Virus record (IMG/VR): IMGVR_UViG_3300034072_001352
Span: 1-36,961 of that record
Strand: one strand, 5' to 3'
DNA: 36,961 nucleotides
From: a virus
Part shown: positions 220 to 23,030 of the stretch, piece by piece
Position numbering within the stretch: position 1 is the stretch's first letter
How the letters are laid out: the number at the start of each line of letters is the position of its first letter
Notes under the pieces: model-generated
Seen by the model: only the letters and a program-made list of their open reading frames with translations
Told to the model about the DNA's origin: nothing
Databases searched by the model: none
Translations under genes and position numbers: made by a program

Positions 220-643
220 AACCTTTATAACCTTTTCTTGATAAACTAGTCCTAGGGATATTATTTTCTTCACAAAACTTTCTTAAACTTGAAACCTCAA
301 CAATTTGGTTTGTTGGGGTTTTTATTTTATAAATCATTCGTTGTGAATAACATCTATTATATGAATGATCACACCACTCTAAGTTACTAACACTATTATC
401 ACTTCTATTTTCATTTTTGTGATTGATTAAAGGTAATTTGTTTGGATTTGGTAGATAGGTTTCTGCTACTAATCTATGAACTCCTTGACATACAAGTTTA
501 TCTCCTATTCTAACCCTGATATTTTTATATCCAGATTGTTTGTGTGTCCCTGGAAATAACTCTTTTAGTGTGCCTTTTTTGTTACTAAAAACCCTGCCAT
601 CTTCCGTGACAAAGTAACCCTTATGGGTAGGATGTTCTTTCAT
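191..643 (-). CDS. HNH homing endonuclease (NUMOD4-HNH-NUMOD1 type)
   Basis: This 150-residue protein is on the opposite strand to everything else. The N-terminal 5-50 resembles NUMOD4 (GYFVTEDGRVFSNKKG). VHRLVAETYL at 55-64 and INHKNENRSDN at 73-83, followed by NLEWCDHSYN at 87-96, form the HNH nuclease core; H75, N83 and the NLEW motif are in the expected places. Residues 110-140 (VEVSSLRKFCEENNIPRTSLSR) look like a NUMOD1 DNA-binding helix-turn-helix. Such free-standing enzymes are common in T4-like phages and promote their own spread by cutting endonuclease-free alleles. Its stop overlaps the end of the upstream + gene by 29 bases. It has its own late-type promoter 24 bases before the ATG. 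No intron halves or intein signatures are visible, so it is probably free-standing. Confidence 0.9.
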   Translation of the reverse strand: MKEHPTHKGYFVTEDGRVFSNKKGTLKELFPGTHKQSGYKNIRVRIGDKLVCQGVHRLVAETYLPNPNKLPLINHKNENRSDNSVSNLEWCDHSYNRCYSQRMIYKIKTPTNQIVEVSSLRKFCEENNIPRTSLSRKGYKGFTLLETCQN

Positions 644-667
644 CTGCTCTATGTTTGTGTGGTGTAT

Positions 668-675
668 TATTTATA
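668..675 (-). promoter_or_regulatory. T4-late-type promoter for the homing endonuclease
   Basis: On the minus strand the sequence reads TATAAATA, an exact match to the T4 late promoter box. It lies 24 bases upstream of the endonuclease ATG, the same distance as the late boxes before gp25, gp8 and the 113-aa structural gene. This implies late expression of the endonuclease, independent of neighbouring transcription. Confidence 0.7.
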
Positions 676-676
676 A

Positions 677-698
677 GGGGAGATGATAAAATCTCCCC
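677..698. terminator. Perfect 8-bp hairpin between divergent units
   Basis: GGGGAGAT and ATCTCCCC flank the loop GATAAA. There is no T-run on the + side. The hairpin sits directly upstream of the minus-strand late promoter, so it may insulate that promoter or stop transcription from either side. Confidence 0.5.
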
Positions 699-765
699 AA
701 CCTGACAAGTTACCACACAAACCAGGCAAAAACTATTTAGTGTGCCAGTAGCACAACCTACACAC

Positions 766-799
766 ACCCCCTAGCAGGGGTCCTGAGTTGCCTTATAGT
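766..799 (+). promoter_or_regulatory. Hairpin-embedded promoter for the PD-(D/E)XK-like gene
   Basis: TATAGT at 794-799 is a good -10 box. Exactly 17 bases upstream lies CTAGCA (771-776). It is a weak -35 by sequence but forms the 6-base loop of an ACCCC/GGGGT stem (766-770 with 777-781). A second hairpin lies in the leader. The -10 call rests on sequence match; the role of the loop is inference. Confidence 0.45.
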
Positions 800-808
800 A
801 GTTTCAAC

Positions 809-827
809 GGGGGGCAAAGCACCCCCC
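809..827 (+). promoter_or_regulatory. GC hairpin in the 5' leader of the 844 gene
   Basis: GGGGGG (809-814) and CCCCCC (822-827) enclose CAAAGCA. The hairpin lies between the -10 box and the ATG, 16 bases before the start. It could affect mRNA stability or initiation, or act as an attenuator. Confidence 0.45.
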
Positions 828-843
828 TCACCAAAGAATTAAG

Positions 844-1485
844 ATGACCCGCGAATTTCATCACACTCTCTCCCCCCTGCTGCAGACTATCTCTGCTCAG
901 GCAATTGTTAAAGTTAATGAGCGCCTGAAACTTGGCATTTGGGGTATCTACATTCCCCTGAAAGATCTTTTTGTTGATGATAAGCAAATCAACCAAACTC
1001 TTACAAAACTTCTTCAGAATCTGGTGAATTATTGCATCAAAGAAGTGATGAAAGAAATGGGAGTTAATGGTAAGCAAGTCGGTGAAGATGGATATGATTA
1101 TATCTTCATTGTCGATGGAGTTGAGTACAAAGTTGAATTCAAACTCATTGCAGGCACTGATAGCATGAAAGCAAGTTTTGCAACTGGCAATAAAATCAGC
1201 GCCCTTAAAGATGAGGATGGTAACTCTATCGGTAAGAAGTCTCCGCTGGTATGGTCCATCAAATATGTGATGGGTGATGATAATCAACTGACTGAATATG
1301 CTGCGGCACTGGTCAATTGCGATCGTTTCTTTAATCCTAACAGTGGTTGGCGTGCTGGTAGTGGAAAGAATGACAGTTATGCTAACTTGAATGTTTGTCT
1401 GAATGAATTGCTCTGCCTTGATATTCTTTACGGTGTAAAACATAAGGCACAAAAGTATTATCATTTTCTTCCTGAGGCAATGTGA
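844..1485 (+). CDS. PD-(D/E)XK nuclease-like protein, possible restriction-type endonuclease
   Basis: The protein has 213 residues and I do not recognise the exact family. The core GYDYIFIVDGVEYKVEFKL (residues 83-101) gives D85, then E98-F-K100, on two predicted beta strands. This is the D-x(n)-E-x-K layout of PD-(D/E)XK nucleases. The N-terminal 1-75 is predicted mostly helical. The C-terminal half holds a Trp- and Asn-rich stretch (FFNPNSGWRAGSGKNDSYANLN, split here as FFNPNSGWRAG and SGKNDSYANLN). A phage enzyme of this type could degrade host DNA, act in DNA repair, or be a remnant of a type II restriction enzyme; no methyltransferase is adjacent. Its base composition is intermediate, less GC-rich than the mini-genes that follow, although its upstream promoter and hairpin arrangement resembles theirs. 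Confidence 0.5.
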   Translation: MTREFHHTLSPLLQTISAQAIVKVNERLKLGIWGIYIPLKDLFVDDKQINQTLTKLLQNLVNYCIKEVMKEMGVNGKQVGEDGYDYIFIVDGVEYKVEFKLIAGTDSMKASFATGNKISALKDEDGNSIGKKSPLVWSIKYVMGDDNQLTEYAAALVNCDRFFNPNSGWRAGSGKNDSYANLNVCLNELLCLDILYGVKHKAQKYYHFLPEAM

Positions 1486-1493
1486 CAATCGGC

Positions 1494-1514
1494 GGGGTGT
1501 CCACTCGGCACCCC
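1494..1514 (+). terminator. GC hairpin after the 844 gene
   Basis: GGGGTG and CACCCC enclose a 9-base loop, starting 9 bases past the stop of the nuclease-like gene. There is no clear T-run. It separates this gene from the promoter of the first mini-gene. Confidence 0.45.
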
Positions 1515-1534
1515 CCTTCTGCCCCTCCTGCCCT

Positions 1535-1540
1535 TAGAAT
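1535..1540 (+). promoter_or_regulatory. -10 box of mini-gene 1
   Basis: TAGAAT lies 21 bases before the ATG at 1562. No convincing -35 is present. The leader is A/C-rich, ends in AACAACCCG before the ATG, and has no Shine-Dalgarno site. Confidence 0.5.
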
Positions 1541-1561
1541 GACCTCAGTTCAAACAACCCG

Positions 1562-1720
1562 ATGATCACGACCTCCTTTGCCTACGGCGACTCCTACGGC
1601 ATCCACGATCGCTACGGCGACGATGAGCGGGAGCATGATGACCTGATGAGCGCCGAGGATTATGATGCCCGCGCTGCCTGGCGTGACGGTTGGGCAAGTG
1701 ACACACAAGGGCGCTGGTGA
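1562..1720 (+). CDS. Mini-gene 1, acidic 52-aa protein of unknown function
   Basis: The product is 52 residues and very acidic, rich in Asp and Tyr, with a repeated YGD motif (AYGDSYG, RYGDDERE) in the first 25 residues. The C-terminal RAAWRDGWASDTQGRW is Trp-rich. No known domain is recognised. The start is supported by the -10 box 21 bases upstream, a C/A-rich leader, and strong use of GC-ending codons. It is first of the co-directional GC-rich mini-gene array and is followed by another promoter. An acidic small phage protein could act as a host-protein inhibitor or DNA mimic, but that is only a guess. Confidence 0.7.
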   Translation: MITTSFAYGDSYGIHDRYGDDEREHDDLMSAEDYDARAAWRDGWASDTQGRW

Positions 1721-1735
1721 CCCCCTCCCTGCCTC

Positions 1736-1741
1736 TATACT
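1736..1741 (+). promoter_or_regulatory. -10 box of mini-gene 2
   Basis: TATACT lies 25 bases before the ATG at 1767. It supports that ATG as the start and marks the upstream extension of the frame to 1662 as non-coding, since that stretch overlaps mini-gene 1. Confidence 0.55.
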
Positions 1742-1766
1742 GATTCAGTCAACCACAGACAACCCA

Positions 1767-2027
1767 ATGGCAACCGCAACCTACCAGACCAACCTGACCG
1801 ACCGCACCTATAACGGTTGGACTAACTACGAAACCTGGAATGTTGTGCTCTGGATTGAGAATGACGAAAGCATTCAAGACTACATTCAAGAGCACGAAGT
1901 CTGCTGCTATGAAGAACTGTTGGACCTGTTCTATGCTTGTGGCAGCACCGAAACCCCTGACGGTGTGAAGTGGGCAGACCCTAAGGTCAACCGCCCCGAA
2001 ATCAACGGTGACGTGTTCGATTTCTGA
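1767..2027 (+). CDS. Mini-gene 2, conserved GWTNYETWN-family phage protein
   Basis: The product has 86 residues. The stretch YNGWTNYETWNVVLWIEND (residues 14-32) is a motif I recognise from many small phage and bacterial proteins of unknown function (NGWTNYETWNVALW-type). The rest is acidic with a CCYEELLDLFYAC segment. The frame continues upstream to 1662, but the ATG at 1767 fits the -10 at 1736-1741 and avoids the overlap with mini-gene 1. No biochemical role is known to me. It is the one mini-gene whose family is clearly widespread. Confidence 0.8.
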   Translation: MATATYQTNLTDRTYNGWTNYETWNVVLWIENDESIQDYIQEHEVCCYEELLDLFYACGSTETPDGVKWADPKVNRPEINGDVFDF

Positions 2028-2038
2028 ACCGTCCACAA

Positions 2039-2056
2039 GGGGGGCAGCGACCCCCC
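2039..2056 (+). terminator. Perfect GGGGGG/CCCCCC hairpin, loop at the -35 position
   Basis: Six G (2039-2044), loop CAGCGA, six C (2051-2056), starting 12 bases after the stop of mini-gene 2. The loop ends 16 bases before the next -10 box. The same CACAAGGGGGGCAGCG sequence recurs before the 3310 gene. Confidence 0.55.
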
Positions 2057-2066
2057 TCTGACCCTG

Positions 2067-2072
2067 TAGGAT
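2067..2072 (+). promoter_or_regulatory. -10 box of mini-gene 3
   Basis: TAGGAT preceded by CCTG, 22 bases before the ATG at 2095. The position matches the other units of the array. The -35 position falls on the loop of the hairpin above. Confidence 0.5.
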
Positions 2073-2094
2073 ACTCTCAACAGCAAACGACCCG

Positions 2095-2289
2095 ATGACC
2101 GAAGACCGCCTGCTCTGCCTCTACGATGACCTGCTGGCACTGGCAGAGCGTCAGGCAGTTGACCTCTACGGATGCGACCTGGATCGCTTGGACCCTGAGA
2201 TCCTGGAATTCTACGGTTCCAAACTGACCGAAGACAACCTGGAGGAACTGGCATCCGACCTTGCCCATGAGGCATGGTTCGCCAACTGA
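2095..2289 (+). CDS. Mini-gene 3, acidic helical 64-aa protein
   Basis: A 64-residue, strongly acidic and Leu-rich protein, predicted all-helical (LYDDLLALAERQ, then DPEILEFYGSKL, then NLEELASDLAHEAWF). No domain is recognised. The start follows the array's usual leader (CAAACGACCCG before ATG) with no Shine-Dalgarno site. Codons are GC-rich like its neighbours. The next promoter begins within 13 bases of its stop, so it is expected to be transcribed as its own unit. Confidence 0.75.
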   Translation: MTEDRLLCLYDDLLALAERQAVDLYGCDLDRLDPEILEFYGSKLTEDNLEELASDLAHEAWFAN

Positions 2290-2294
2290 CCCCC

Positions 2295-2322
2295 GACCTG
2301 CTACAATACTCTCACAACGCAA
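2295..2322 (+). repeat. 28-bp direct repeat A, copy 1, containing the mini-gene 4 promoter
   Basis: Identical over 28 bases to 2544-2571. It holds an extended -10 (TGC-TACAAT, hexamer at 2302-2307) and the leader start CTCACAACGCAA. The hexamer ends 22 bases before the ATG at 2330. Confidence 0.7.
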
Positions 2323-2329
2323 CCCACCC

Positions 2330-2545
2330 ATGAGCAAGCGTTTCCCCTGGATTGATGACCTCAGCACCCCGCAGCTGGTGGCTCTGGCAGGTATCCTGAT
2401 CGTTGGCGTCGCTGGCGTCGTTGCCCTTAAGGCGTGGCTCCTGGTGCTGGTGCTGGGGTGGTTTGGAATCACCGCCCTGGGATTTTGGAAGGCGGTTGTG
2501 GCAGTTGTCCTGCTGGACCTGTTGCTGGCCGCTGCCCGCCGCTGA
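2330..2545 (+). CDS. Mini-gene 4, small two-helix membrane protein
   Basis: The protein has 71 residues. A short polar N terminus (MSKRFPWIDDLSTPQ) is followed by two or three hydrophobic stretches: residues 16-33 (LVALAGILIVGVAGVVAL) and roughly 35-50 plus 53-68 (rich in V, L, A, W). It ends in AARR. The layout suggests a small inner-membrane or thylakoid-membrane protein, with Arg at the C-terminal end likely cytoplasmic. The frame is open further upstream to 2261, but the ATG at 2330 fits the promoter repeat. Function is unknown; holin-like or membrane-modulating roles are possible but unsupported. Confidence 0.75.
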   Translation: MSKRFPWIDDLSTPQLVALAGILIVGVAGVVALKAWLLVLVLGWFGITALGFWKAVVAVVLLDLLLAAARR

Positions 2546-2571
2546 CCTGCTACAATACTCTCACAACGCAA
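2544..2571 (+). repeat. 28-bp direct repeat A, copy 2, containing the mini-gene 5 promoter
   Basis: Identical to 2295-2322. TACAAT at 2551-2556 ends 23 bases before the ATG at 2580. The repeat starts inside the stop codon of mini-gene 4 (TGA at 2543-2545). Confidence 0.7.
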
Positions 2572-2579
2572 GACACCCC

Positions 2580-2741
2580 ATGCGCTTCGAAGTCCGTTAC
2601 CAGACCCCCTACAACCACTGCGAGTGGCGCTCCCAGTGGTTCACCAGTAAAGAGGAAGCAGACCGTATGGTAGACTTCTATCGCTCCTGCGGGTCGCCCT
2701 CTCACATTGCCCCCTCCTCCCTGGCACAACTGGAACGCTGA
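2580..2741 (+). CDS. Mini-gene 5, 53-aa hypothetical protein
   Basis: The sequence MRFEVRYQTPYNHCEWRSQW begins a predicted short beta strand pair, followed by FTSKEEADRMVDFYRSCG, a predicted amphipathic helix. This beta-beta-alpha layout resembles many small phage proteins with a surface strand and an EEA-x-R-M helix, but no named family is recognised. The start is set by the promoter repeat; the frame is open upstream to 2403 only because of the GC-rich composition. Two cysteines (C14, C37) are present. Confidence 0.7.
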   Translation: MRFEVRYQTPYNHCEWRSQWFTSKEEADRMVDFYRSCGSPSHIAPSSLAQLER

Positions 2742-2765
2742 CCCCCATGGGAATGGCAGCGCCCC

Positions 2766-2771
2766 TAAAGA
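2766..2771 (+). promoter_or_regulatory. Weak -10-like box of mini-gene 6
   Basis: TAAAGA lies 29 bases before the ATG at 2801. It is a poorer match and further away than in the other units, so this gene may also be read from upstream. Confidence 0.25.
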
Positions 2772-2800
2772 CTCCGCCAACCCTTTACCTTTCAACTCTG

Positions 2801-2968
2801 ATGACCCGCGACCTGGCACTCTCCCTGCTCCGCACTGGCAACGACGGCAACAGCATCCTCCAGATTCTGGAGACCCTGACCTCTGACATTGAGCAGGAGA
2901 ACATCGCTGACGCCGCTGCCCATTATGCTGCCATCAGCGCCCCGACCCTGCAGGAAGTTCAATTCTGA
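2801..2968 (+). CDS. Mini-gene 6, conserved small cyanophage-type protein (MTRDLALSLL family)
   Basis: The protein has 55 residues: MTRDLALSLLRTGNDGNSIL, then QILETLTSDIEQENIADAAA, then HYAAISAPTLQEVQF. I recognise this type (MTRxxALSLLxxGNxGxxIL) as a common small protein in T4-like cyanophages and related phages, function unknown. The first half resembles a small helical domain with a GN-x-G turn. The frame could begin at 2747 (MGMAAPLK), but the ATG at 2801 matches the family start. The hairpin at 2983-3000 follows its stop. Confidence 0.75.
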   Translation: MTRDLALSLLRTGNDGNSILQILETLTSDIEQENIADAAAHYAAISAPTLQEVQF

Positions 2969-2982
2969 AACTGCACACCCTG

Positions 2983-3000
2983 GGGGAGCAGACCCTCCCC
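2983..3000 (+). terminator. GGGGAG/CTCCCC hairpin after mini-gene 6
   Basis: A 6-bp stem with 6-base loop CAGACC (2989-2994). It lies 14 bases after the stop of mini-gene 6 and just upstream of the next -10 box, as at 2039-2056. Confidence 0.5.
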
Positions 3001-3007
3001 TGGGGTC

Positions 3008-3013
3008 TAATAT
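3008..3013 (+). promoter_or_regulatory. -10 box of mini-gene 7
   Basis: TAATAT within TCTAATATTAGG, 28 bases before the ATG at 3042. The overlapping TATTAG at 3011-3016 would give the usual spacing of 25. The leader (CCGCAACCGACAGAGGACCG) includes GAGG, the only near-Shine-Dalgarno in the array. Confidence 0.4.
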
Positions 3014-3041
3014 TAGGGGGACCGCAACCGACAGAGGACCG

Positions 3042-3239
3042 ATGACCCACACCATCACCAACACTGAAGCCCAACTCCTGCAGACTGCTGGCGTGATCAC
3101 CTGGGACTGCTTCACCCCTAGCATGATTCGGCAGATGCACGCCACCCCTGAAGGCGCTGAGATGCTCCGCCTGATTGTCCGCGACAACCTGCAGGGTGCC
3201 GCTGATAAGATCGCCAACGCCCTCCTTGCCAAACTCTGA
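3042..3239 (+). CDS. Mini-gene 7, 65-aa hypothetical protein
   Basis: The protein has 65 residues. MTHTITNTEAQLLQTAGVIT is followed by WDCFTPSMIRQMHATPEGAE and a C-terminal helix (MLRLIVRDNLQGAADKIANA). Mostly helical by eye; the amphipathic C-terminal helix could support dimerisation. No domain is recognised. The start is chosen from the array leader (ACAGAGGACCG before the ATG); the frame extends upstream to 2889 only across mini-gene 6. Codon use is GC-rich like its neighbours. Confidence 0.7.
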   Translation: MTHTITNTEAQLLQTAGVITWDCFTPSMIRQMHATPEGAEMLRLIVRDNLQGAADKIANALLAKL

Positions 3240-3252
3240 GGTGGCACACAAG

Positions 3253-3270
3253 GGGGGCAGCGATGCCCCC
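3253..3270 (+). terminator. 7-bp hairpin with GCGA tetraloop
   Basis: GGGGGCA (3253-3259), GCGA, TGCCCCC (3264-3270). GCGA is a GNRA tetraloop, which makes a stable RNA hairpin. It starts 14 bases past the stop of mini-gene 7, with its loop 16 bases before the next -10 box. Confidence 0.6.
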
Positions 3271-3275
3271 TGCTG

Positions 3276-3303
3276 CCTGTAGAATTCTCAAGCAACCGAC
3301 AGA
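3276..3303 (+). repeat. 28-bp direct repeat B, copy 1, containing the mini-gene 8 promoter
   Basis: Identical to 3742-3769. It contains TAGAAT (3280-3285) followed by the leader TCTCAAGCAACCGACAGA. The -10 ends 24 bases before the ATG at 3310. Confidence 0.7.
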
Positions 3304-3309
3304 GACCTG

Positions 3310-3492
3310 ATGACCTTCCCCGACCTCATCGCTGAAATCACCAACCCTGAGAACGGCACCATCTACTGGATCGAAGCGGCACACGCTGCCAAGCAGCATG
3401 GTCTGTGGGATGACTTCCGCACCGACTACGGAACGACCTCTGCCTTCGGTGGGGTCGATGCTGGGGAGTTTCTGGTCTGGCTGGGGTATTGA
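3310..3492 (+). CDS. Mini-gene 8, 60-aa hypothetical protein
   Basis: The protein has 60 residues: MTFPDLIAEITNPENGTIYW, then IEAAHAAKQHGLWDDFRTDY, then a Gly/Phe-rich C terminus ending in FLVWLGY. It is acidic and appears folded from a helix, a turn and a C-terminal hydrophobic strand. No domain is recognised. Its start is fixed by promoter repeat B. Its stop codon TGA overlaps the -35 element TTGACC of the next unit, showing how tightly the array is packed. Confidence 0.75.
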   Translation: MTFPDLIAEITNPENGTIYWIEAAHAAKQHGLWDDFRTDYGTTSAFGGVDAGEFLVWLGY

Positions 3493-3517
3493 CCCTGGCA
3501 CCCCGACCCTGTAGAAT
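3489..3517 (+). promoter_or_regulatory. Sigma70-type promoter of mini-gene 9
   Basis: TTGACC (3489-3494), exactly 17 bases, TAGAAT (3512-3517), then 25 bases to the ATG at 3543. With the 3723-3751 site it is the clearest full promoter in the array. The -35 contains the stop codon of mini-gene 8. Confidence 0.75.
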
Positions 3518-3542
3518 TCCAAAGCAAACCGCAACCGACCTC

Positions 3543-3707
3543 ATGCTGGACGGAACCATCGCCACCGCCTTCGACGACCTGACCTCCTTCCAACTGGAGG
3601 AGTGGCTGTGGGAAGGAAACCCCACCGCCAAGGAGCAGCGGGCAATCCTCAAGGAACTGGTATCCCGCCAGCAGCGCCGTGAAGCAATTGCCGACCTGCT
3701 CTGGTGA
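3543..3707 (+). CDS. Mini-gene 9, 54-aa helical protein
   Basis: The protein has 54 residues: MLDGTIATAFDDLTSFQLEE, then WLWEGNPTAKEQRAILKELV, then SRQQRREAIADLLW. Two to three amphipathic helices are predicted, with an acidic, Trp-containing N-terminal half and a basic C-terminal helix. No domain is recognised. The start follows a full promoter and the array leader (CCGCAACCGACCTC). An upstream frame to 3489 exists but would overlap the promoter. Confidence 0.7.
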   Translation: MLDGTIATAFDDLTSFQLEEWLWEGNPTAKEQRAILKELVSRQQRREAIADLLW

Positions 3708-3714
3708 CCCCTAC

Positions 3715-3736
3715 GGGGAGGGTTGACCCCCTCCCC
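3715..3736 (+). terminator. Perfect 8-bp GC hairpin with a -35 hexamer as its loop
   Basis: GGGGAGGG (3715-3722) and CCCTCCCC (3729-3736) enclose the 6-base loop TTGACC, which is also the -35 of the next promoter. It begins 8 bases after the stop of mini-gene 9. Confidence 0.65.
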
Positions 3737-3751
3737 TCCATCCTGTAGAAT
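3723..3751 (+). promoter_or_regulatory. Sigma70-type promoter of mini-gene 10
   Basis: TTGACC (3723-3728), exactly 17 bases, TAGAAT (3746-3751), then 24 bases to the ATG at 3776. The -35 is the loop of the hairpin at 3715-3736. Confidence 0.75.
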
Positions 3752-3769
3752 TCTCAAGCAACCGACAGA
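3742..3769 (+). repeat. 28-bp direct repeat B, copy 2
   Basis: Identical to 3276-3303, covering the -10 box and most of the leader of mini-gene 10. Repeats A and B suggest that promoter-leader units were duplicated or kept identical by recombination. Confidence 0.7.
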
Positions 3770-3775
3770 CGACCG

Positions 3776-3985
3776 ATGCGTTTCCCCCTCTCTCAAGCAA
3801 CCCGCCTCTCTGACCGTCAGACCGTGTGGGTCTCCGCCTCTGACAATGCCAAGAATGCGGACGGTCGCCCCTCTCAGTTCGTGCACTGGGGTGTGCCCAC
3901 TGCCACCATCGCCGCCGCCTATTCTGAGGCACACCGTGGCACTCACCGCTGCCCCATCAGCGGGTGGGTCAGTCAGCAGGGGTGA
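3776..3985 (+). CDS. Mini-gene 10, 69-aa hypothetical protein
   Basis: The protein has 69 residues. An N-terminal part (MRFPLSQATRLSDRQTVWVS) with beta-strand character is followed by ASDNAKNADGRPSQFVHWGV and a C-terminal PTATIAAAYSEAHRGTHRCP. Three His and one Cys lie in the last 30 residues, but no clean metal-binding motif is formed. No family is recognised. The promoter and leader fit exactly with this ATG. Near its stop the sequence is G-rich and can pair with the following C-run. Confidence 0.7.
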   Translation: MRFPLSQATRLSDRQTVWVSASDNAKNADGRPSQFVHWGVPTATIAAAYSEAHRGTHRCPISGWVSQQG

Positions 3986-4007
3986 GGGGTCTCCCCCCCA
4001 TTCGTGC

Positions 4008-4013
4008 TACAGT
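4008..4013 (+). promoter_or_regulatory. -10 box of mini-gene 11
   Basis: TACAGT preceded by GTGC (extended -10-like), 23 bases before the ATG at 4037. Leader AACCAAGCAACCGAAACCAA without a Shine-Dalgarno site. A short GGGG/CCCC pairing lies just upstream (about 3986-3996). Confidence 0.5.
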
Positions 4014-4036
4014 AACCAAGCAACCGAAACCAACCG

Positions 4037-4351
4037 ATGACCGTCACCATCACCCGTCTCCGCCGCCAGGGTCCCCGTAAGGGTGAAACCCTCTCCCGCA
4101 ATTCTCAGCACGGTCGCGGCGCTGCAGTCGGTGCCGTTCGTGGCGGAGACTCTGCCGCTGCTTCTCATGCCGTTGGTGCTGGTAAGGGTCTGACCATCAC
4201 CCGCGTGACGGGTCTGGGGCGGCAGATGGTCTCCGACCTTGACGGTGCCATCGCCCGTGCTAAGCAGCAGCATCGCGCCGACCGTATCGCCGCTGCCCGT
4301 GACCGTCTGCAGGAGCGGGTGGGTCATTCGCCGCTCGCCTGCCGCTTCTGA
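4037..4351 (+). CDS. Mini-gene 11, basic Arg/Ala/Gly-rich 104-aa protein
   Basis: The largest of the array (104 residues) and strongly basic. The N-terminal 1-55 is Arg/Gly-rich (TRLRRQGPRKGETLSRN, VGAVRGGDS) and probably flexible. Residues 60-92 (LGRQMVSDLDGAIARAKQQH, then RADRIAAARDRLQERV) should form an amphipathic helix or coiled coil. The composition fits nucleic-acid binding, but no domain is recognised. The start is supported by the promoter and the CCAACCG leader. It is the last full gene of the GC-rich block; composition turns AT-rich about 130 bases later. Confidence 0.7.
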   Translation: MTVTITRLRRQGPRKGETLSRNSQHGRGAAVGAVRGGDSAAASHAVGAGKGLTITRVTGLGRQMVSDLDGAIARAKQQHRADRIAAARDRLQERVGHSPLACRF

Positions 4352-4398
4352 CTCATATTCGTGGGCGGCAGTCATTCGTGCGTGTTTGGCAGTCGCCC

Positions 4399-4425
4399 CC
4401 GCCCGTTGCCCGCGTCGCGGGGCGG
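4399..4425 (+). terminator. GC-rich inverted repeats at the end of the mini-gene block
   Basis: CCGCCC (4399-4404) pairs with GGGCGG (4420-4425), and inside them lies the 13-base palindrome CCCGCG-T-CGCGGG (4409-4421). There is no T-run. It sits at the junction between the GC-rich array and the AT-rich region. Confidence 0.4.
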
Positions 4426-4430
4426 CGTGT

Positions 4431-4436
4431 TATAAG
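4431..4436 (+). promoter_or_regulatory. -10 box at the end of the mini-gene block
   Basis: TATAAG with a possible -35 TTGCCC (4406-4411, spacing 19). It precedes an ATG at 4459 by 22 bases, the same spacing as in the array, and could also serve the gene at 4562. Confidence 0.4.
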
Positions 4437-4458
4437 GTTACCCCCCGTTCATAAATCG

Positions 4459-4512
4459 ATGGGTCCCCCTAACCTACAAAGTGTTACGAAAGGCATCTAT
4501 ATATCACACTGA
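4459..4512 (+). pseudogene. Possible truncated twelfth mini-gene (17 codons)
   Basis: An ATG at the array's normal distance from a -10 box opens a frame of only 17 codons (MGPPNLQSVTKGIYISH). Base composition switches from GC-rich to AT-rich within it. It may be the remnant of a mini-gene cut by recombination at the block edge, or just the leader of the 4562 gene. Confidence 0.25.
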
Positions 4513-4561
4513 TTATAAAAATTTTTTTCCCTATATAAAAACGAAAAAAGGTTTAGAGGAA

Positions 4562-4738
4562 ATGAAAAAAAATTCCGGAGATATTTTCGAGTCCATAGAG
4601 GTCGATCCAATTAGTGGGGAGTATTACATTACAATCCCAGAGCAAGTCATGAATGAACTCTCATGGTATGAAGACACTGAAATATCCTTTAAGATTGAGG
4701 GGGACGAAGTAGTCTTAACCGAAAGGGAAGTCGATTGA
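4562..4738 (+). CDS. Small AbrB/SpoVT-like protein, conserved in cyanophages
   Basis: The product has 58 residues: MKKNSGDIFESIEVDPISGE, then YYITIPEQVMNELSWYEDTE, then ISFKIEGDEVVLTEREVD. The pattern GEYYITIPEQVMNELSWYEDTEIS (strand, IP, helix, acidic turn, strand), with the final KIEGDEVVLTE, matches the half-barrel of AbrB/MazE-type DNA-binding antitoxin and regulator domains. A single-copy domain of this size would have to dimerise. AGAGG lies just before this ATG. The frame also extends to a GTG at 4481, but that stretch looks non-coding. Its stop overlaps the -35 of the next promoter. A regulator role is inference from fold pattern only. Confidence 0.65.
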   Translation: MKKNSGDIFESIEVDPISGEYYITIPEQVMNELSWYEDTEISFKIEGDEVVLTEREVD

Positions 4739-4763
4739 CACTCTATACATAATACTGTATGAT
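4735..4763 (+). promoter_or_regulatory. Consensus sigma70 promoter of the glycosyltransferase operon
   Basis: TTGACA (4735-4740, perfect), exactly 17 bases, TATGAT (4758-4763). The ATG is 22 bases further on. The -35 overlaps the stop codon of the preceding gene. It should be read efficiently by unmodified host polymerase, so expression is likely early. Confidence 0.85.
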
Positions 4764-4785
4764 ACTGAAGTAAACAACTTATCTC

Positions 4786-5544
4786 ATGGCAAAAGGATTC
4801 ACTGTAAAAGCAAAGGCACCCGTTGCCTCACAAACTACACAAGAATGGGATTATAATCTAGCAAAAGAGATGGTGCGTGGTAAGTCCGTCGTCTTTTGTC
4901 TTCCTGGAAGAGGAGTCTCTTACACATACTTGAAGAATTTCGTGCAACTCTGTTTTGACTTAGTTCAGGCGGGAGCAAGCATTCAAATCTCGCAAGACTA
5001 TTCATCAATGGTAAACTTTGCAAGATGCAAATGTTTAGGTGCGAATGTACTGCGAGGACCTGACCAAATTCCCTGGGATGGCAAATTGAAATATGATTGG
5101 CAACTATGGATTGACTCTGACATTGTTTTTAATACTGAAAAGTTTTATCAACTAGTCTTAATGGACAAAGACATTGCTTCTGGTTGGTATGCGACTGAAG
5201 ATGGTCATACGACCTCAGTTGCACACTGGTTGGATGAAGATGATTTCAGAGGTAATGGTGGAGTGATGAATCATGAAACCGTTGAAAGCATCTCTAAGCG
5301 TCGGAAACCATTTACAGTTGACTATGCAGGATTCGGTTGGCTTCTGATTAAGAATGGAGTATTTGAGCATCCTGAAATCAAGTATCCTTGGTTTGCCCCT
5401 AAGATGCAAGTCTTTGAATCTGGTCAAGTTCAAGATATGTGTGGAGAAGATGTATCATTCTGTTTGGATGCAAAGGAAGCAGGATTTGAAATTTGGTGCG
5501 ACCCTCGCGTGCGCGTTGGACACGAAAAAACAAGGATTATTTGA
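4786..5544 (+). CDS. GT-A fold glycosyltransferase-like protein
   Basis: The protein has 252 residues. FCLPGRGVSYTYLKNFVQLC (38-57) fits the first Rossmann strand and helix of a GT-A domain. LWIDSDIVF (107-115) holds the DSD (D110-S-D112) metal/nucleotide-sugar motif. CGEDVSFCLDAKEAGFEIWC (219-238) is the GED acceptor/catalytic region, and VGHEK (244-248) supplies the C-terminal His that often binds metal. Substrate and acceptor are unknown; in phages such enzymes modify DNA bases, capsid proteins or host surface sugars. It is driven by a consensus sigma70 promoter. The next gene starts one base after its stop. This type is widespread in T4-like cyanophages. Confidence 0.8.
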   Translation: MAKGFTVKAKAPVASQTTQEWDYNLAKEMVRGKSVVFCLPGRGVSYTYLKNFVQLCFDLVQAGASIQISQDYSSMVNFARCKCLGANVLRGPDQIPWDGKLKYDWQLWIDSDIVFNTEKFYQLVLMDKDIASGWYATEDGHTTSVAHWLDEDDFRGNGGVMNHETVESISKRRKPFTVDYAGFGWLLIKNGVFEHPEIKYPWFAPKMQVFESGQVQDMCGEDVSFCLDAKEAGFEIWCDPRVRVGHEKTRII

Positions 5545-5545
5545 T

Positions 5546-5740
5546 ATGACTAACGATAACGAAACTTACAATATCCTATGTAAGGGTCGTAGAATATATA
5601 CAGGACTTACAGAGGAAGAATATTTCAATGTAATGGAGGACTTGTCAATAGAATTCTATCAGACAGGTTCTCCACGACCTGAAGATATTGAAACTGAAAT
5701 TTTAACGGAGAGTAAACTATGGCAAAAGGCGGATCACTGA
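5546..5740 (+). CDS. Conserved small cyanophage protein, 64 aa
   Basis: MTNDNETYNILCKGRRIYTG followed by LTEEEYFNVMEDLSIEFYQT and a GSPRPEDIETEI tail. I recognise this as a common T4-like cyanophage protein of unknown function (typical features: SEEE-[FY]-F-x-x-MEDL and EFYQTG). A short beta hairpin followed by an amphipathic helix is predicted. Its ATG is one base beyond the glycosyltransferase stop, so it is probably translationally coupled. Its last 22 bases overlap the next gene in another frame. Confidence 0.75.
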   Translation: MTNDNETYNILCKGRRIYTGLTEEEYFNVMEDLSIEFYQTGSPRPEDIETEILTESKLWQKADH

Positions 5741-5865
5741 AGAATAGTTCTTATATTCCGGGACCTCCTAAGAAGTCTCGTCAAGGCAATGGAGGTGGTA
5801 CTAAGTATGCCTCGTCTTCTCGTAATGGAGCACGTAAGAAGTATAGAGGTCAAGGTAAAGGATGA
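5719..5865 (+). CDS. Small Gly/Lys/Ser-rich basic cyanophage protein, 48 aa
   Basis: The protein reads MAKGGSLKNSSYIPGPPKKS, then RQGNGGGTKYASSSRNGARK, then KYRGQGKG. It is highly basic and low-complexity, with no predicted fold, and resembles short basic proteins seen at this place in other cyanophages. GGAG lies 8 bases before the ATG. It overlaps the end of the previous gene by 22 bases and its stop overlaps the next start as ATGA. A nucleic-acid or ribosome-associated role is possible but unproven. Confidence 0.7.
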   Translation: MAKGGSLKNSSYIPGPPKKSRQGNGGGTKYASSSRNGARKKYRGQGKG

Positions 5866-5990
5866 AAAAGAGTTCTCATGGACCAGGAGGCAAGCACCGT
5901 AGAACTGGCACTTGTCGCACTAATGCCCAAAAGGCAGCAGCACGGAAAAGGAGAAAACTCAAACCAGGTAGAAAATACGGGTTTAAGTAG
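5862..5990 (+). CDS. Small very basic protein, 42 aa
   Basis: The protein reads MKKSSHGPGGKHRRTGTCRT, then NAQKAAARKRRKLKPGRKYG, then FK. Its composition is like a ribosomal protein tail. It starts in an ATGA overlap with the previous gene and ends directly before the next ATG (5991), so it is clearly in the operon. The function is unknown; an RNA- or DNA-binding peptide is the likeliest general role. Confidence 0.65.
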   Translation: MKKSSHGPGGKHRRTGTCRTNAQKAAARKRRKLKPGRKYGFK

Positions 5991-6590
5991 ATGTATCTTC
6001 TAGAGTGTAATGATGAATGGAATCATATACATCCTGAAGATTTGTGGGTATATAATAAATTATTTCTAAGTCGGCGTTTAGGTTATATTTGTGGTCCTGC
6101 AGGGACTACAGTTCCTAAACCCGACTTTTATATTGTTCGCCCATCTTTTAATTTGTTTGGGATGAGTCGTTTTGCTCGTATAGTATGGATAGAAAAGTTT
6201 ACAGATAACATACACCCCTCTGAATTTTGGTGTGAGATATTCAAGGGTGAGCATTTAAGTGTCGATTATCATAATCAACAGCATGATATGACAGTATTAG
6301 GAGTTAGAAATGAAGAGAATCCCATTTATAAGTGGGACCGATGGGAAAAAATTAATAGAAAAATAGAATTTCCTGATATTTTAAAGAATTTAAAGAAAAA
6401 ATATGAATGGATAAATTGCGAATTCATAGATGGGCGCATTATAGAAGTACAATTTCGTAGAAATCCTGATTTTAGATATGGAAATACAGTGGCAATTCCA
6501 GTCTGGGAAGAAGATAGTAATAAAATTTATCAAGATTGCACTTATATTGATGATGTTGACTATAAAAGAAAAGGTTTTTGGGTAAAATAA
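5991..6590 (+). CDS. Conserved cyanophage hypothetical protein, 199 aa
   Basis: The protein starts MYLLECNDEWNHIHPEDLWV and then contains a YNKLFLSRRLGYICGPAGTT segment with VRPSFNLFGMSRFARIVWIE. The mix of Trp, Tyr, Pro and charged residues suggests a compact enzyme-like alpha/beta domain. CGPAGTTVPKPDFYIVRPSFN recalls the start of ATP-grasp-like proteins (IVRPS), but no catalytic set is complete. I recognise the type as conserved in T4-like cyanophages, next to the small genes before speD, without known function. The ATG directly follows the previous stop. A late-type box lies over its last codons and serves the next gene. Confidence 0.7.
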   Translation: MYLLECNDEWNHIHPEDLWVYNKLFLSRRLGYICGPAGTTVPKPDFYIVRPSFNLFGMSRFARIVWIEKFTDNIHPSEFWCEIFKGEHLSVDYHNQQHDMTVLGVRNEENPIYKWDRWEKINRKIEFPDILKNLKKKYEWINCEFIDGRIIEVQFRRNPDFRYGNTVAIPVWEEDSNKIYQDCTYIDDVDYKRKGFWVK

Positions 6591-6593
6591 ATA
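6586..6593 (+). promoter_or_regulatory. Late-type promoter box before speD
   Basis: AATAAATA, one mismatch from the T4 late box TATAAATA. A start site a few bases downstream (about 6600) would make a TTG start at 6600 leaderless. This favours the ATG at 6630 for speD. Confidence 0.5.
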
Positions 6594-6629
6594 CATTTTT
6601 TGTGTACAACTGAATTGGAAATCTTTTCA

Positions 6630-6956
6630 ATGGGCAAACACCTACTCTTAGAGGTGTATGATGTTGATTTTGAAGCGATTAATGATGTAGAATCGCTTCA
6701 AAATGTAATGATCAATGGCATTAAACGTGCTAAAATGACCATTTTGAATGTTTTTTCACATTGTTTTATACCTCAAGGGTGTACAATTGTGATTGCTCTT
6801 GCAGAAAGTCATGTTTCTTGCCATACTTGGCCTGAAAATGGGTGTTTAGCAATCGATGTTTACACCTGTGGAGACGGAAATCCAAAATTAATCGCTTTAG
6901 AGATATTAAAATACTTAAATTCTGACAATTACTCTCTTCGGGAAATCGATCGTTAA
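6630..6956 (+). CDS. speD: S-adenosylmethionine decarboxylase proenzyme
   Basis: The protein has 108 residues. It makes decarboxylated SAM, the aminopropyl donor for spermidine synthesis, and is a recognised auxiliary metabolic gene of T4-like cyanophages. The bacterial-type core is complete: MGKHLLLEVY at the N terminus, ALAESHVSCHTWPENG (56-71) and VYTCGDG (77-83). E59-S60 is the self-cleavage site that makes the pyruvoyl group from S60. H65 and C80 match the processing His and the catalytic Cys (TCGD). The frame continues to a TTG at 6600, but the ATG at 6630 fits the family start and the late promoter at 6586-6593. It precedes the virion genes, with an 80-aa gene in between. Confidence 0.93.
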   Translation: MGKHLLLEVYDVDFEAINDVESLQNVMINGIKRAKMTILNVFSHCFIPQGCTIVIALAESHVSCHTWPENGCLAIDVYTCGDGNPKLIALEILKYLNSDNYSLREIDR

Positions 6957-6964
6957 ATAGAAAT

Positions 6965-7015
6965 AAGGAGATAGCAACCTCCTTTATAAAAGTTCTGTTT
7001 TATTCATTAAAACAG
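6965..7015 (+). promoter_or_regulatory. Structured leader with anti-Shine-Dalgarno segment before the 7024 gene
   Basis: AAGGAG (6965-6970) can pair with CTCCTT (6979-6984). A second hairpin, CTGTTTT (6995-7001) with AAAACAG (7009-7015), reaches into the Shine-Dalgarno site AGGAG (7014-7018) of the next gene. CCTCCTTT at 6978-6985 could alternatively pair with that site. Confidence 0.4.
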
Positions 7016-7023
7016 GAGCTAAA

Positions 7024-7266
7024 ATGTCTAATTTACCCGTCGATAGGGACTCAAATTATATGAGAGAGATGTGGGGAACTACTCATCTCATCACCGATTA
7101 TGATAATGTGCCCCCAAAAAGAGTGATTCAAGAGGTTATGCATGACCTGGCACCTAAGCATAACTTGAAAAAACAACAAGAATTGCACGAAAAAATTCGC
7201 AATGACGAAGATTATGATGATTGGGAGTATGGAACTGAGCCAGGATATGGATCTTTGTGGAAATAA
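7024..7266 (+). CDS. Conserved small cyanophage protein, 80 aa
   Basis: The protein reads MSNLPVDRDSNYMREMWGTT, then HLITDYDNVPPKRVIQEVMH, then DLAPKHNLKKQQELHEKIRN and a very acidic tail (DEDYDDWEYGTEPGYG). A central helix is predicted between two disordered ends. AGGAG 6 bases before the ATG is a strong ribosome site, partly covered by a predicted hairpin. It sits between speD and gene 25, a place where cyanophages often carry a small protein of unknown role. A virion or assembly function is possible because of its location. Confidence 0.7.
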   Translation: MSNLPVDRDSNYMREMWGTTHLITDYDNVPPKRVIQEVMHDLAPKHNLKKQQELHEKIRNDEDYDDWEYGTEPGYGSLWK

Positions 7267-7267
7267 A

Positions 7268-7275
7268 CATAAATA
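7268..7275 (+). promoter_or_regulatory. Late-type promoter box before gene 25
   Basis: CATAAATA, one mismatch from TATAAATA, ending 21 bases before the gp25 ATG. It marks the start of the late virion block. Confidence 0.6.
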
Positions 7276-7296
7276 ATCCAAGAAATTTCTTATCCA

Positions 7297-7698
7297 ATGG
7301 CAGTAACACGAATATCTAGATCATTCAAGGATATTAGTCTGTCTTTTGATCCACATCCTGTGACCAAAGATCTGCCAATTCTGAAAAATCAGAGTGCAAT
7401 TATTCGTTCTATTCGTAATCTTGTAGAAACTATCCCAAACGAAAGATTTTTTAATCCTAGTTTGGGATCTGATGTTCGCTCAAGTCTATTTGAATTTGTA
7501 GATTTTGCAACTGCATCAGTTGTAAGAGACCAAATTATCAACACAATTTCAAATTATGAGCCAAGAGTGTCTGGTGTTGATGTAGAAGTTGAACCTAGAC
7601 CAGACTCTAATGAATTTGAAGTTACTGTTATTTTTGATATCATTGGACAAGAATTACCAACGCAACAGTTCTCATTCATATTAGAGGCAACAAGATAA
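7297..7698 (+). CDS. 25: Baseplate wedge subunit gp25
   Basis: The protein has 133 residues, against 132 in T4. Features of the gp25/TssE-like family are present: FDPHPVTKDLPILKNQSAII (18-37), then RSIRNLVETIPNERFFNPSL (38-57) with GSDVRSSLFEFVD, and a C-terminal SGVDVEVEPRPDSNEFEVTV strand region. gp25 is part of the inner baseplate wedge and helps nucleate sheath polymerisation around the gp6 ring. The following gene 6 starts one base after its stop. It has a late-type promoter. The family call is firm. Confidence 0.93.
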   Translation: MAVTRISRSFKDISLSFDPHPVTKDLPILKNQSAIIRSIRNLVETIPNERFFNPSLGSDVRSSLFEFVDFATASVVRDQIINTISNYEPRVSGVDVEVEPRPDSNEFEVTVIFDIIGQELPTQQFSFILEATR

Positions 7699-7699
7699 A

Positions 7700-9655
7700 A
7701 TGCCTTTCACTAAATTTACCAACCTAGATTTTGACCAGATAAAAACTTCAATCAAAGATTATCTTCGTGCTAACTCAACATTCACGGATTTTGATTTTGA
7801 AGGTTCTAACTTCTCTGTTCTAATTGATACTCTAGCGTATAACACATATATTACGGCATTTAATTCGAATATGGTGATAAACGAATCCTTTTTGGATTCG
7901 GCAACTGTTAGAGAAAATGTAGTTTCTCTTGCTAGGAATATTGGTTATGTGCCATATTCTAGAAACGCTGCAAGTGCTACAGTATCTTTTACGGTAAATG
8001 TACCCCCAAGTAGTTTTTTAAGCGACGATACGCCTGTTTATACGCCAACAGTAACTCTACAAGCAGGACTTGTCTGCACTGGTTCAGTAAGGGGAACTTC
8101 TTATGTATTTTCTGCTCCAGAAAATATCACAGTTCCAGTTGTGAATGGTGTAGCAACATTTAGTAATATTATAATCAAAGAAGGAACTTTTCTAACCAAA
8201 AAGTTTACTGTTAATGCATCTTTAGACCAAAAGTTTATACTTGACAACTCTTTTATTGATACTTCTACAGTTAGAGTCTATGTAAAGGGTTCTAGTGATA
8301 GTGGATTAGGAATAAAATACTCATTAGTGGATAATATTTTTGAAGTAAATTCAAATTCTCAAATCTTTTTAATTCAGGAAGTACAGGACGAAAAATATCA
8401 ACTTCTTTTTGGTGATGGAATTTTTGGTCAAAAACCAGAAAATGGCGCAATAATTACTAGTAACTACATTATAACTAGTGGAAAGGATGGAAATGGTGTA
8501 GAAACATTCTCTTTTGCGGGATCATTAAGGAATTCTGATGATGGTAATGTAATACCACAGAATACAATTACAGTTACTACTAATCAGAAATCTCAAAATG
8601 GATCTGATATTGAAACAATAGATTCTATTCGTTATTTCGCTCCTCGTTTGTATGCATCTCAATATAGAGCAGTAACTGCAAGTGATTATGAAACTATTAT
8701 TAAGTCCAAAATATATGGAAATGCAGAGTCAATTTCTGTGATTGGCGGAGAAGAATTAACTCCACCACAGTTTGGAACGGTTTTAATCAGTATAAAACCA
8801 AAAAATGGCACATTTGTTTCAGATTTTGACAAAGAAAATATACTTGCAAAACTAAAGCAATATAGTGTCTCTGGAATTAATACAAAAATAATTGATCTGA
8901 AAATTCTTTATGTTGAAATTGAGTCTTTTATCTATTATAATGAAAGTCAAGTTGCAAGTTCTTCAGACTTAAAAACTAGAGTAAACAATTCTCTTACAAA
9001 GTATTCGGAGTCTGTAGATTTAAATAAGTTTGGTGGAAGATTTAAATATAGTAAAGTTTTACAAGTTATAGACAATACCGACAATGCTGTTACTTCAAAT
9101 ATAACAAGAGTTAGAGTAAGAAGAGACTTAAAGGCTCTTGTGAATCAGCAGGCACAATATGAAATATGTTTCGGAAATCAATTCCATGTAAATCAGTATG
9201 GATATAATATTAAATCAACTGGATTTAAGATTTTAAATGAATCAGATACTGTATATTTTAGTGATGTTCCTAATTCTGATGGAAAAACAGGTGTAATTGC
9301 CATTGTAAAACCATCCACGGGAACTAGCATAGAAACGCAATCAAACGTTTCTCTACAACCATTCGTAATTGTACAATCTGCAGGAGTTGTTAATTATGAA
9401 ACAGGTGAAATAACTATTAACACCATTACAATAACATCAACTGAAAGAGATAATGATATTATTGAAATACAAGCATATCCTGAGTCAAATGATGTTGTTG
9501 GTCTGAAAGACTTGTATGTTTCTTTTGACATTTCAAAAAGTCAAATAAATATGGTAAAGGATACTATTGCATCTGGTGAGGACATTTCTGGTGTTGTCTT
9601 CACAAAAAATTCTTATCGCTCAAGTTATTCAAACGGGAGTTTAACGAGGTCATAA
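7700..9655 (+). CDS. 6: Baseplate wedge subunit gp6
   Basis: The protein has 651 residues, against about 660 in T4. The N terminus (FTKFTNLDFDQIKTSIKDYL, then FEGSNFSVLIDTLAYNTYIT with AFNSNMVINESFLDSATVRE) is the typical gp6/J-like start. The middle shows the GDGIFGQKPENGAIITSNYI motif (about 246-265) and YRAVTASDYETIIKSKIYGN (about 326-345), both characteristic of baseplate J/gp6 proteins. gp6 dimers form the continuous ring that holds the six wedges together. It follows gene 25 and precedes the gp7-like gene with one base between stop and start. The assignment is secure. Confidence 0.93.
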   Translation: MPFTKFTNLDFDQIKTSIKDYLRANSTFTDFDFEGSNFSVLIDTLAYNTYITAFNSNMVINESFLDSATVRENVVSLARNIGYVPYSRNAASATVSFTVNVPPSSFLSDDTPVYTPTVTLQAGLVCTGSVRGTSYVFSAPENITVPVVNGVATFSNIIIKEGTFLTKKFTVNASLDQKFILDNSFIDTSTVRVYVKGSSDSGLGIKYSLVDNIFEVNSNSQIFLIQEVQDEKYQLLFGDGIFGQKPENGAIITSNYIITSGKDGNGVETFSFAGSLRNSDDGNVIPQNTITVTTNQKSQNGSDIETIDSIRYFAPRLYASQYRAVTASDYETIIKSKIYGNAESISVIGGEELTPPQFGTVLISIKPKNGTFVSDFDKENILAKLKQYSVSGINTKIIDLKILYVEIESFIYYNESQVASSSDLKTRVNNSLTKYSESVDLNKFGGRFKYSKVLQVIDNTDNAVTSNITRVRVRRDLKALVNQQAQYEICFGNQFHVNQYGYNIKSTGFKILNESDTVYFSDVPNSDGKTGVIAIVKPSTGTSIETQSNVSLQPFVIVQSAGVVNYETGEITINTITITSTERDNDIIEIQAYPESNDVVGLKDLYVSFDISKSQINMVKDTIASGEDISGVVFTKNSYRSSYSNGSLTRS

Positions 9656-9656
9656 T

Positions 9657-21455: not shown

Positions 21456-23030
21456 ATGTCTGCACTTGTAACAGATCAATTTAGAATTCTTAATGCTACT
21501 AATTTTATAGAATCAGTAGATAATGATTCATATTATGTTTGGGTTGGACTGTCAAACCCTAATATATCTGGATTTGGTAGAAATGCAAACTGGGATGGTG
21601 GAACTGGAGTAACAAATGGTGTTGTTCCAAATCCTATAGATAATTTAGATTACCTCACCCAATATGAAGATACTCTTCTTTTTGGAAAAAAAGTAACATC
21701 ATCAAATATAAGAAGAGTTGTAAAAAGAGTTGATTGGGTGAGAGGAAAAAAATATGATATGTATAGGCATGATTATAGTATCACTAATCTTAGTCCAATA
21801 GCAAAAAGGGCAAGATTGTATGATTCAGAATATTATGTAATCAATAGCGACTATAAAGTTTATATCTGTACCCAAAACGGTTCCAGTGGTATTAATACAA
21901 CTGGAAATCAGTCATTATACGAACCAACGCACACTGATTTAGAACCAACTATAGCAGGTTCAGGTGGTGATGGATATTACTGGAAGTATCTATTCACAGT
22001 TTCTCCTAGCGACATTATAAAGTTTGACTCTACAGAGTATATTACATTACCCAATAACTGGAGCAATTCTACAGACTCTCAGATTGTTTCTGTAAGAGAA
22101 AATGGCGATTCTGAAGTAAATGATAATCAAATAAAAACGGTTTATATCGATAATCCTGGAAGTAATTATCAAGTTTTACCAGAGGCAGTAGAAGTTGACA
22201 TTTTGGGAGATGGGACTGGTGGTAAAGTTAGTATTGAAACTAATTCAAGTGGAGAAATAATTAATACCACTGTTACTTTTGGTGGTAAAGGATATACTTA
22301 TGGAATAGTTGATTTGGGACCTATACAACCAGGTGGAAATATTGCAAATCCTGCAAAACTAATTCCAATAATTCCACCATCTAGAGGTCATGGATACGAT
22401 TTATATAAAGAACTTGGTGCAGACCGAGTGATGATTTACAGTAGATTTGATGATTCTTCTAGGGATTTTCCAACCAATACTAAGTTTTGTCAGATTGGCA
22501 TATTAAAAAATCCTACTAAATTTATATCAACAGATACCTTTACAGATGCTCAATTTTCTGGATTATATTCAATCAATTTCTCTTCAGTAAATGATATTCT
22601 TCCAATTGTTGGTGAAAAGATTACTCAATCGAGTACTGGAGCAGTAGGATATGTTGCATCATATGATTCTGACACTAAAGTGTTAAAATATTTTAGAGAT
22701 AGATCACTATATTATGCACCTGCACCGTCATATGATCAAACAGATTATGTTGGTGTTTCTACTGATGGAAATGCTAATGTGAATTTTAGTAACACTGGGG
22801 GAAATATAGTTGGTGAAACTAGTGGATTTACAGGACAAATTTCATCCTTTAGTGGAATAACTACAACAGTGAATAACTCCATTATAAATTTAGGAGTTAC
22901 ATTTGAAGATGGTCTTGCAAATCCTGAGATAAATAAAAAGACGGGAGATATAATTTATATTGATAATAGACCTCTCGTTTCACGCAATATTAGGCAAAAA
23001 GAAGACATTAAAATTATCCTGGAATTTTAA
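21456..23030 (+). CDS. 8: Baseplate wedge subunit gp8
   Basis: The protein has 524 residues; T4 gp8 has 334. The N terminus MSALVTDQFRILNATNFIES with YYVWVGLSNP and then YDMYRHDYSITNLSPIAKRA (about 97-116) and YICTQNGSSG...TDLEPTIAGSGGDGYYWKY (about 130-182, shortened here) match the gp8 fold (wedge protein binding gp7 and gp10). Residues about 225-300 hold two GxGY-type repeats (IDNPGSNYQVLP, FGGKGYTYG) that T4 gp8 lacks, so the extra length is probably this insertion. It has its own late promoter. Its stop is 3 bases before the next gene. Confidence 0.88.
   Translation: MSALVTDQFRILNATNFIESVDNDSYYVWVGLSNPNISGFGRNANWDGGTGVTNGVVPNPIDNLDYLTQYEDTLLFGKKVTSSNIRRVVKRVDWVRGKKYDMYRHDYSITNLSPIAKRARLYDSEYYVINSDYKVYICTQNGSSGINTTGNQSLYEPTHTDLEPTIAGSGGDGYYWKYLFTVSPSDIIKFDSTEYITLPNNWSNSTDSQIVSVRENGDSEVNDNQIKTVYIDNPGSNYQVLPEAVEVDILGDGTGGKVSIETNSSGEIINTTVTFGGKGYTYGIVDLGPIQPGGNIANPAKLIPIIPPSRGHGYDLYKELGADRVMIYSRFDDSSRDFPTNTKFCQIGILKNPTKFISTDTFTDAQFSGLYSINFSSVNDILPIVGEKITQSSTGAVGYVASYDSDTKVLKYFRDRSLYYAPAPSYDQTDYVGVSTDGNANVNFSNTGGNIVGETSGFTGQISSFSGITTTVNNSIINLGVTFEDGLANPEINKKTGDIIYIDNRPLVSRNIRQKEDIKIILEF

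Follow-up and report, generated by a model that had tools for sequence, protein, structure and literature searches.

How can the end of one gene's message and the promoter of the next gene be written in the same few bases, and does the promoter depend on the structure around it? The question is raised by positions 3705–3775 of a 36,961-nucleotide fragment of an uncultured T4-like cyanophage (an IMG/VR record, analysed over its whole length and called the window here), where the loop of a GC-rich hairpin is at the same time the −35 hexamer of a putative promoter.

The site and the small-gene array

The host group of the virus is picocyanobacteria. Positions 4467–11368 of the window are about 79 per cent identical to Synechococcus phage S-SRM01 in the aligned parts, and gp25 lies at 7297–7698. 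From about 1500 to 4440, the window carries a GC-rich (about 60 per cent) array of co-directional small ORFs that adjoins baseplate genes, with junctions that vary between contigs. Nearly all array ORFs tested are without a known domain (one is a DUF7249 protein), most have their own −10 box about 24–35 nt 5′ of the ATG, and the small genes are separated by cassettes of about 70 bases. An HNH_3 endonuclease ORF on the minus strand (191–643), possibly a homing-type element, marks the left boundary of the array. An Rfam search of 600–4600 returned no match near the gathering score.

The cassette under study, like the sister hairpins and the hairpinless TTGACC site described below, lies on the plus strand. 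Its left end is the TGA stop codon (3705–3707) of the upstream ORF (3543–3707), followed by the 5′ arm of the hairpin, GGGGAGGG (3715–3722), the 6-nt loop TTGACC (3723–3728), the 3′ arm CCCTCCCC (3729–3736), which is also the first half of the promoter spacer, a 9-nt tail TCCATCCTG (3737–3745), the −10 box TAGAAT (3746–3751), and a leader TCTCAAGCAACCGACAGACGACCG (3752–3775) common to other array promoters (repeat families D2 and D5). The small ORF that follows (3776–3985; MRFPLSQATR...) has no Pfam match. The original prediction placed TTGACC in the hairpin loop exactly 17 bases (3729–3745) before TAGAAT, and both direct reading and a script found every letter and distance correct. TTGACC-17-TAGAAT matches 10 of 12 positions of the sigma-70-type consensus, and it is from this match and the conserved spacing that the promoter half of the cassette is predicted. 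As RNA, 3708–3745 folds at −18 kcal/mol with a stem of 8 bp; the z-score of −2.1 is modest because the context is GC-rich.

Similar geometry had been claimed for four other places in the array. The loops of two sister hairpins do end 16 bases before their −10 boxes: AGGGGGG-cagcga-CCCCCCT (2038–2057, loop 2045–2050) before TAGGAT (2067–2072), and GGGGGGCA-gcga-TGCCCCCT (3252–3271, loop 3260–3263) before TAGAAT (3280–3285). The other two agree in part. ACCCC-ctagca-GGGGT (766–781, loop 771–776) ends its loop 17 bases before TATAGT (794–799) as claimed, but its stem is just 5 bp; GGGGGAG-cagacc-CTCCCCT (2982–3001, loop 2989–2994) is a hairpin, but its loop ends 14 bases before AATATT (3009–3014), a poor −10 box. 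Three hairpins with loop ends at 16–18 among 11 array promoters correspond to p ~2e-5. Among the cited array sites, a good −35 hexamer lies in the loop at 3723 only; the second TTGACC of the array (3489–3494), 17 bases before TAGAAT (3512–3517), is without a stem and arises from the context of an upstream stop codon, TAT TGA CCC (stop at 3490–3492). A further GC hairpin, GGGGGG caaagca CCCCCC (809–827), follows the putative −10 box that starts at 794 and presumably belongs to the 5′ leader of ORF 844–1485.

Recurrence and covariation in related viruses

Relatives were gathered through array proteins and leader patterns without any hairpin criterion, and the sample consists of the matches listed. 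Among these, 341 non-redundant cyanophage promoters were defined by the −10 box and the CAGTTCA leader alone. A GC hairpin with its loop end 10–24 nt upstream is present in 124 of these 341 listed promoters, against about 9 (range 4–14) expected from dinucleotide shuffles. The loop ends 16, 17 or 18 nt before the −10 box in 23, 43 and 28 of these listed cases, respectively, where shuffles give fewer than 1 each (about 1.6 per 341 promoters for 16–18 before a given −10 box). Fixed-column complementarity, which involves no picking of hairpins, peaks among the matches listed at a dyad centre of −20.0 from the −10 box, i.e. the middle of the −35 hexamer with a 16–17-nt spacer. The overlap of the hairpin with the −35 position is thus real and recurrent and is not due to chance.

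The hexamer itself is less constant than the position. Of the 48 upstream occurrences of TTGAC among the matches listed, 33 begin between −25 and −21, and the motif occupies the −35 position in only 16 of 120 hairpins. Nevertheless, many different stems enclose TTGAC in their loops: among the matches listed, 49 of 291 cassette-like hairpins have the motif overlapping their loop, versus 12 of 791 other strong hairpins (p ~4e-19, with exact duplicates alone removed). Conversely, when 200 TTGAC-N17-TANANT sites were picked from the matches listed without a hairpin criterion, 11 had a flanking stem of at least 8 bp, versus 0.7 with arms swapped. RNA folding of 47 array TTGAC promoters with shuffled flanks placed TGA in the loop in 38 cases versus 30.6, a weak separation because G-runs and C-runs fold anyway; arm-swapping and covariation are the informative tests. 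The correlation of stem length with foot distance (r −0.59, versus 0.00 with loop end) was set aside as proof of an anchored loop, since chance outward extension of stems yields the same pattern.

The 120 cassettes among the matches listed have 74 distinct stem sequences, mostly of 6–9 bp (112 of these 120 listed cassettes combine a G-rich 5′ arm with a C-rich 3′ arm). The original prediction had proposed a search of related genomes for stem covariation around a conserved loop position, and such covariation was found: it reaches 0.291 versus 0.174 in column shuffles, 0 of 500 of which attain the observed value, and is lower in every slid register, and each of the 8 pairs shows changes in both arms. 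In the GGGG..TTGAC..CCCC family, the outer GGGG/CCCC is constant and the inner arms change jointly (CAGG/CCTG, CACC/GGTG, AGGG/CCCT in the window, and CGGG/CCCG). The hairpins could in principle be an artefact of composition, namely of G-runs and C-runs in a region of such GC content, and the modest z-score of the 3715 fold would agree with that, but the observed values lie far above those from dinucleotide shuffles, arm-swaps and column shuffles alike, and we regard an artefact as wildly improbable.

Cassettes are also dispersed. Among the matches listed are 22 same-contig pairs of cassettes that are at least 85 per cent identical, all before unrelated proteins, one pair (contig L254) being 100 per cent identical over 70 nt; the near-identical cassettes span from stop codon to start codon. 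Such copies before unrelated genes, together with orthologous junctions that occur both with and without the hairpin, would suit a pure recombination seam, in which cassettes persist for the short homologies they offer to gene shuffling, with no RNA function for the hairpin. Covarying stems, however, mean that selection maintains the pairing but lets the sequence drift, whereas homology would require the reverse, and we give this explanation very little credence. One cassette queried by BLAST had no match among isolated phages. When 257 Gb of bacterial and archaeal genomes were scanned for the leader pattern, 86 contigs gave one match each, with no cyanobacterium among the titles, which is chance level and gives no sign that the leader came from a host.

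A separate palindrome, TGCCAGTT-N4-AACTGGCA, centred at about −42.5 from the start of the −10 box, is present in 182 of the 341 promoters among the matches listed versus 25 in shuffles; an example in the window is 1684–1703 (TGACGGTTGGGCAAGTGACA), before TATACT at 1736. Since its sequence is conserved, unlike that of the hairpin stems, it looks like a candidate binding site for a dimeric regulator.

Transcript end, promoter and the role of the stem

In front of the same downstream genes, the −10 box and leader occur without a stem in many phages. In L248, which encodes the protein closest to that of the downstream gene outside the window (among the matches listed), TTGACC comes from the stop-codon context and is stemless, and in L250 an upstream gene that ends in the same way is followed by the hairpin form; hairpin and hairpinless cassettes thus interchange at orthologous junctions. 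Because such stemless orthologous promoters are common, the stem, judged from these junctions, is not required for the promoter to exist. Related phages with the promoter and no stem had been named in advance as refuting the compact terminator–promoter joint; their existence rules against a required stem, not against the composite architecture, which stands with its fixed geometry in many phages, its covarying stems and its loop at the −35 position.

The suggestion that a cruciform exposes the −35 loop finds no support. A dyad acting in DNA, either as a cruciform of this kind or as an operator for a dimeric protein, would explain the exact symmetry centred on the −35 position. The 74 distinct stems among the matches listed and their compensatory changes nevertheless argue against a conserved operator, as the stemless orthologous promoters argue against a dyad that is required by and conserved with the promoter; 104 of the 120 listed loops are without TTGAC, and GC stems of 6–9 bp make poor cruciforms. 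We therefore consider action of the dyad in DNA very unlikely.

The position of the hairpin relative to the upstream gene is consistent with an end of the upstream transcript. Among the matches listed, a median of 10 nt separates the upstream stop codon from the 5′ foot of the stem, and all 98 listed copies of the GGGG..TTGAC..CCCC family have TGA no more than 9 nt 5′ of the stem region. The 3′ foot lies on average 9.7 nt before the −10 box (120 cassettes among the matches listed). In intrinsic termination, RNA is released 7–9 nt after the stem, so the release point would fall just before the −10 box, and the tail at 3737–3745 would be the release zone if the hairpin terminates. A few copies have the complete form: L069 is a textbook terminator (AACACCCC-TTGACC-GGGGTGTT-TTTTTATTG-TATAAT), and L124 is a full intrinsic terminator with TTTTTTT. 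Among the matches listed, fewer than four T occur in the next 8 bases at 97 of 120 hairpins, and at least four at 23. Given the stops close 5′ of the stems and these full terminators, the hairpin probably forms the 3′ end of the upstream message, and termination would be the likeliest way of doing so, although canonical intrinsic termination is not assured because most hairpins, including that at 3715–3745, are without a U-tract.

An alternative is that the hairpin only stabilizes or processes the 3′ end of the mRNA, that transcription continues, and that the promoter is merely nearby. Hairpins placed just after stop codons are what such a stabilizer would look like, as is a U-tract that is missing from most cassette copies yet present at other hairpins of the same contigs. 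This would not account for the fixed 17 nt between the loop itself and the −10 box, where a stem of looser position would be expected, and the complete terminators L069 and L124 also count against it; we consider it unlikely, albeit the most serious competitor.

Our preferred reading, to which we assign a probability of roughly two in three, is that 3705–3775 is a dispersed stop-to-start composite cassette of a T4-like cyanophage, whose RNA hairpin ends or protects the upstream message and whose loop doubles as a −35 element in DNA. In the RNA of the upstream gene, 3715–3736 would fold into the GC hairpin directly after the stop codon and would either end the short message or define and protect its 3′ end; in double-stranded DNA, the same bases would be an ordinary sigma-70-type promoter. 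The loop, as the sole part of the hairpin with free sequence, would carry the −35 hexamer, the 3′ arm and about 9 nt would make up the 17-nt spacer, and the −10 box would start where a terminated transcript would end. Since no single molecule has to adopt both the stem and the promoter, no cruciform is needed. The promoter–terminator joint is well supported as an architecture and putative as a function, with promoter activity, termination and early timing of the cassette all predicted from sequence.

Retention of bacterial RNA polymerase after termination, its diffusion on DNA and its reinitiation are among the behaviours described in the literature (PMC6978380, PMC6978322). Since the predicted release point falls where the −10 box starts and the loop is the −35 box, a polymerase terminating here might be set free on the next promoter itself, bind sigma again and reinitiate on the spot, a gene-to-gene terminator–promoter relay that we offer as a speculation with the odds well against it.

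More generally, a gene-end hairpin and the next promoter can share bases under two constraints, RNA pairing on the one hand and the DNA hexamer with its spacing on the other. The natural set of junctions with and without a hairpin before the same gene is suited to studies of insulation, of U-tract-free termination in cyanobacteria, of polymerase recycling, and of cassette-driven gene shuffling.

Relation to known systems

The cassette resembles an intrinsic (Rho-independent) terminator in its GC hairpin right after the stop codon and, in a few copies, in the U-tract; it differs in that most copies are without that tract, and at 3715–3736 the GC-rich hairpin is followed by TCCATCCTG instead. 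In the hairpin-dependent promoters of the phage N4 virion RNA polymerase and of the F plasmid (Frpo), a DNA hairpin is the recognition element. The cyanophage cassettes likewise have a promoter element at a hairpin, but their stem is dispensable and variable and their promoter is of the ordinary sigma-70 type.

Closer relatives are the PeSL (promoter-early stem-loop) elements of T4-like coliphages, which are composite promoter–terminator cassettes. Those of RB49 and phi1, as summarized in PMC4503421, mediate shuffling and join a stem-loop to an early promoter (Arbiol et al. 2010; Comeau et al. 2014). The cyanophage cassettes share with PeSL a promoter that is sigma-70-like by sequence, its combination with a stem-loop, a location in a variable region among small non-core genes, and repeated, dispersed and apparently shuffled copies. 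Few PeSL-like elements were reported in the S-PM2 ORFan region (Puxty et al., PMC4503421). T4-like cyanobacterial phages nonetheless possess dense composite cassettes, S-PM2 included: adjacent to that region, at 21.7–24.6 kb, S-PM2 has five cassettes of the −35-centred type, at 21770–21790, 22037–22060, 23728–23747, 24070–24087 and 24556–24574, one with TTGACG in the loop (GGGAGCAGG-TTGACG-CCTGCTCCC-N8-TATACT). S-SZBM1 and S-SRM01 have one each, and S-H9-1 has a TTGACA promoter with a weak short stem only. The S-PM2 record (L001) leaves 22975–23767 empty and calls minus-strand ORFs across parts of the array, and plus-strand small ORFs with their own cassettes at 13140–13900 and 11742–12200 are unannotated in it.

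The difference from RB49 is one of register. By our computation, RB49 has two registers: one with the hairpin upstream of the −35 hexamer in TTGACA-N16-TATAAT (centre −46 to −65, with a U-tract in clear cases), and one whose hairpin takes up the entire 17-nt spacer (centre −9, e.g. TTGACA GGGGATCggtGATCCCC TATACT). Eight RB49 early promoters have this perfect spacer hairpin (GGGGATCggtGATCCCC) between TTGACA and TATAAT or TATACT (loci L029, L451 and L452, e.g. L452, minus strand, script position 42283). The cyanophage hairpin differs from both in being centred on the −35 hexamer (about −20) and usually without a U-tract, and this mismatch makes the cassette a PeSL variant rather than an RB49-type PeSL. 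The cyanophage form is best read as a third register, a compressed relative of PeSL.
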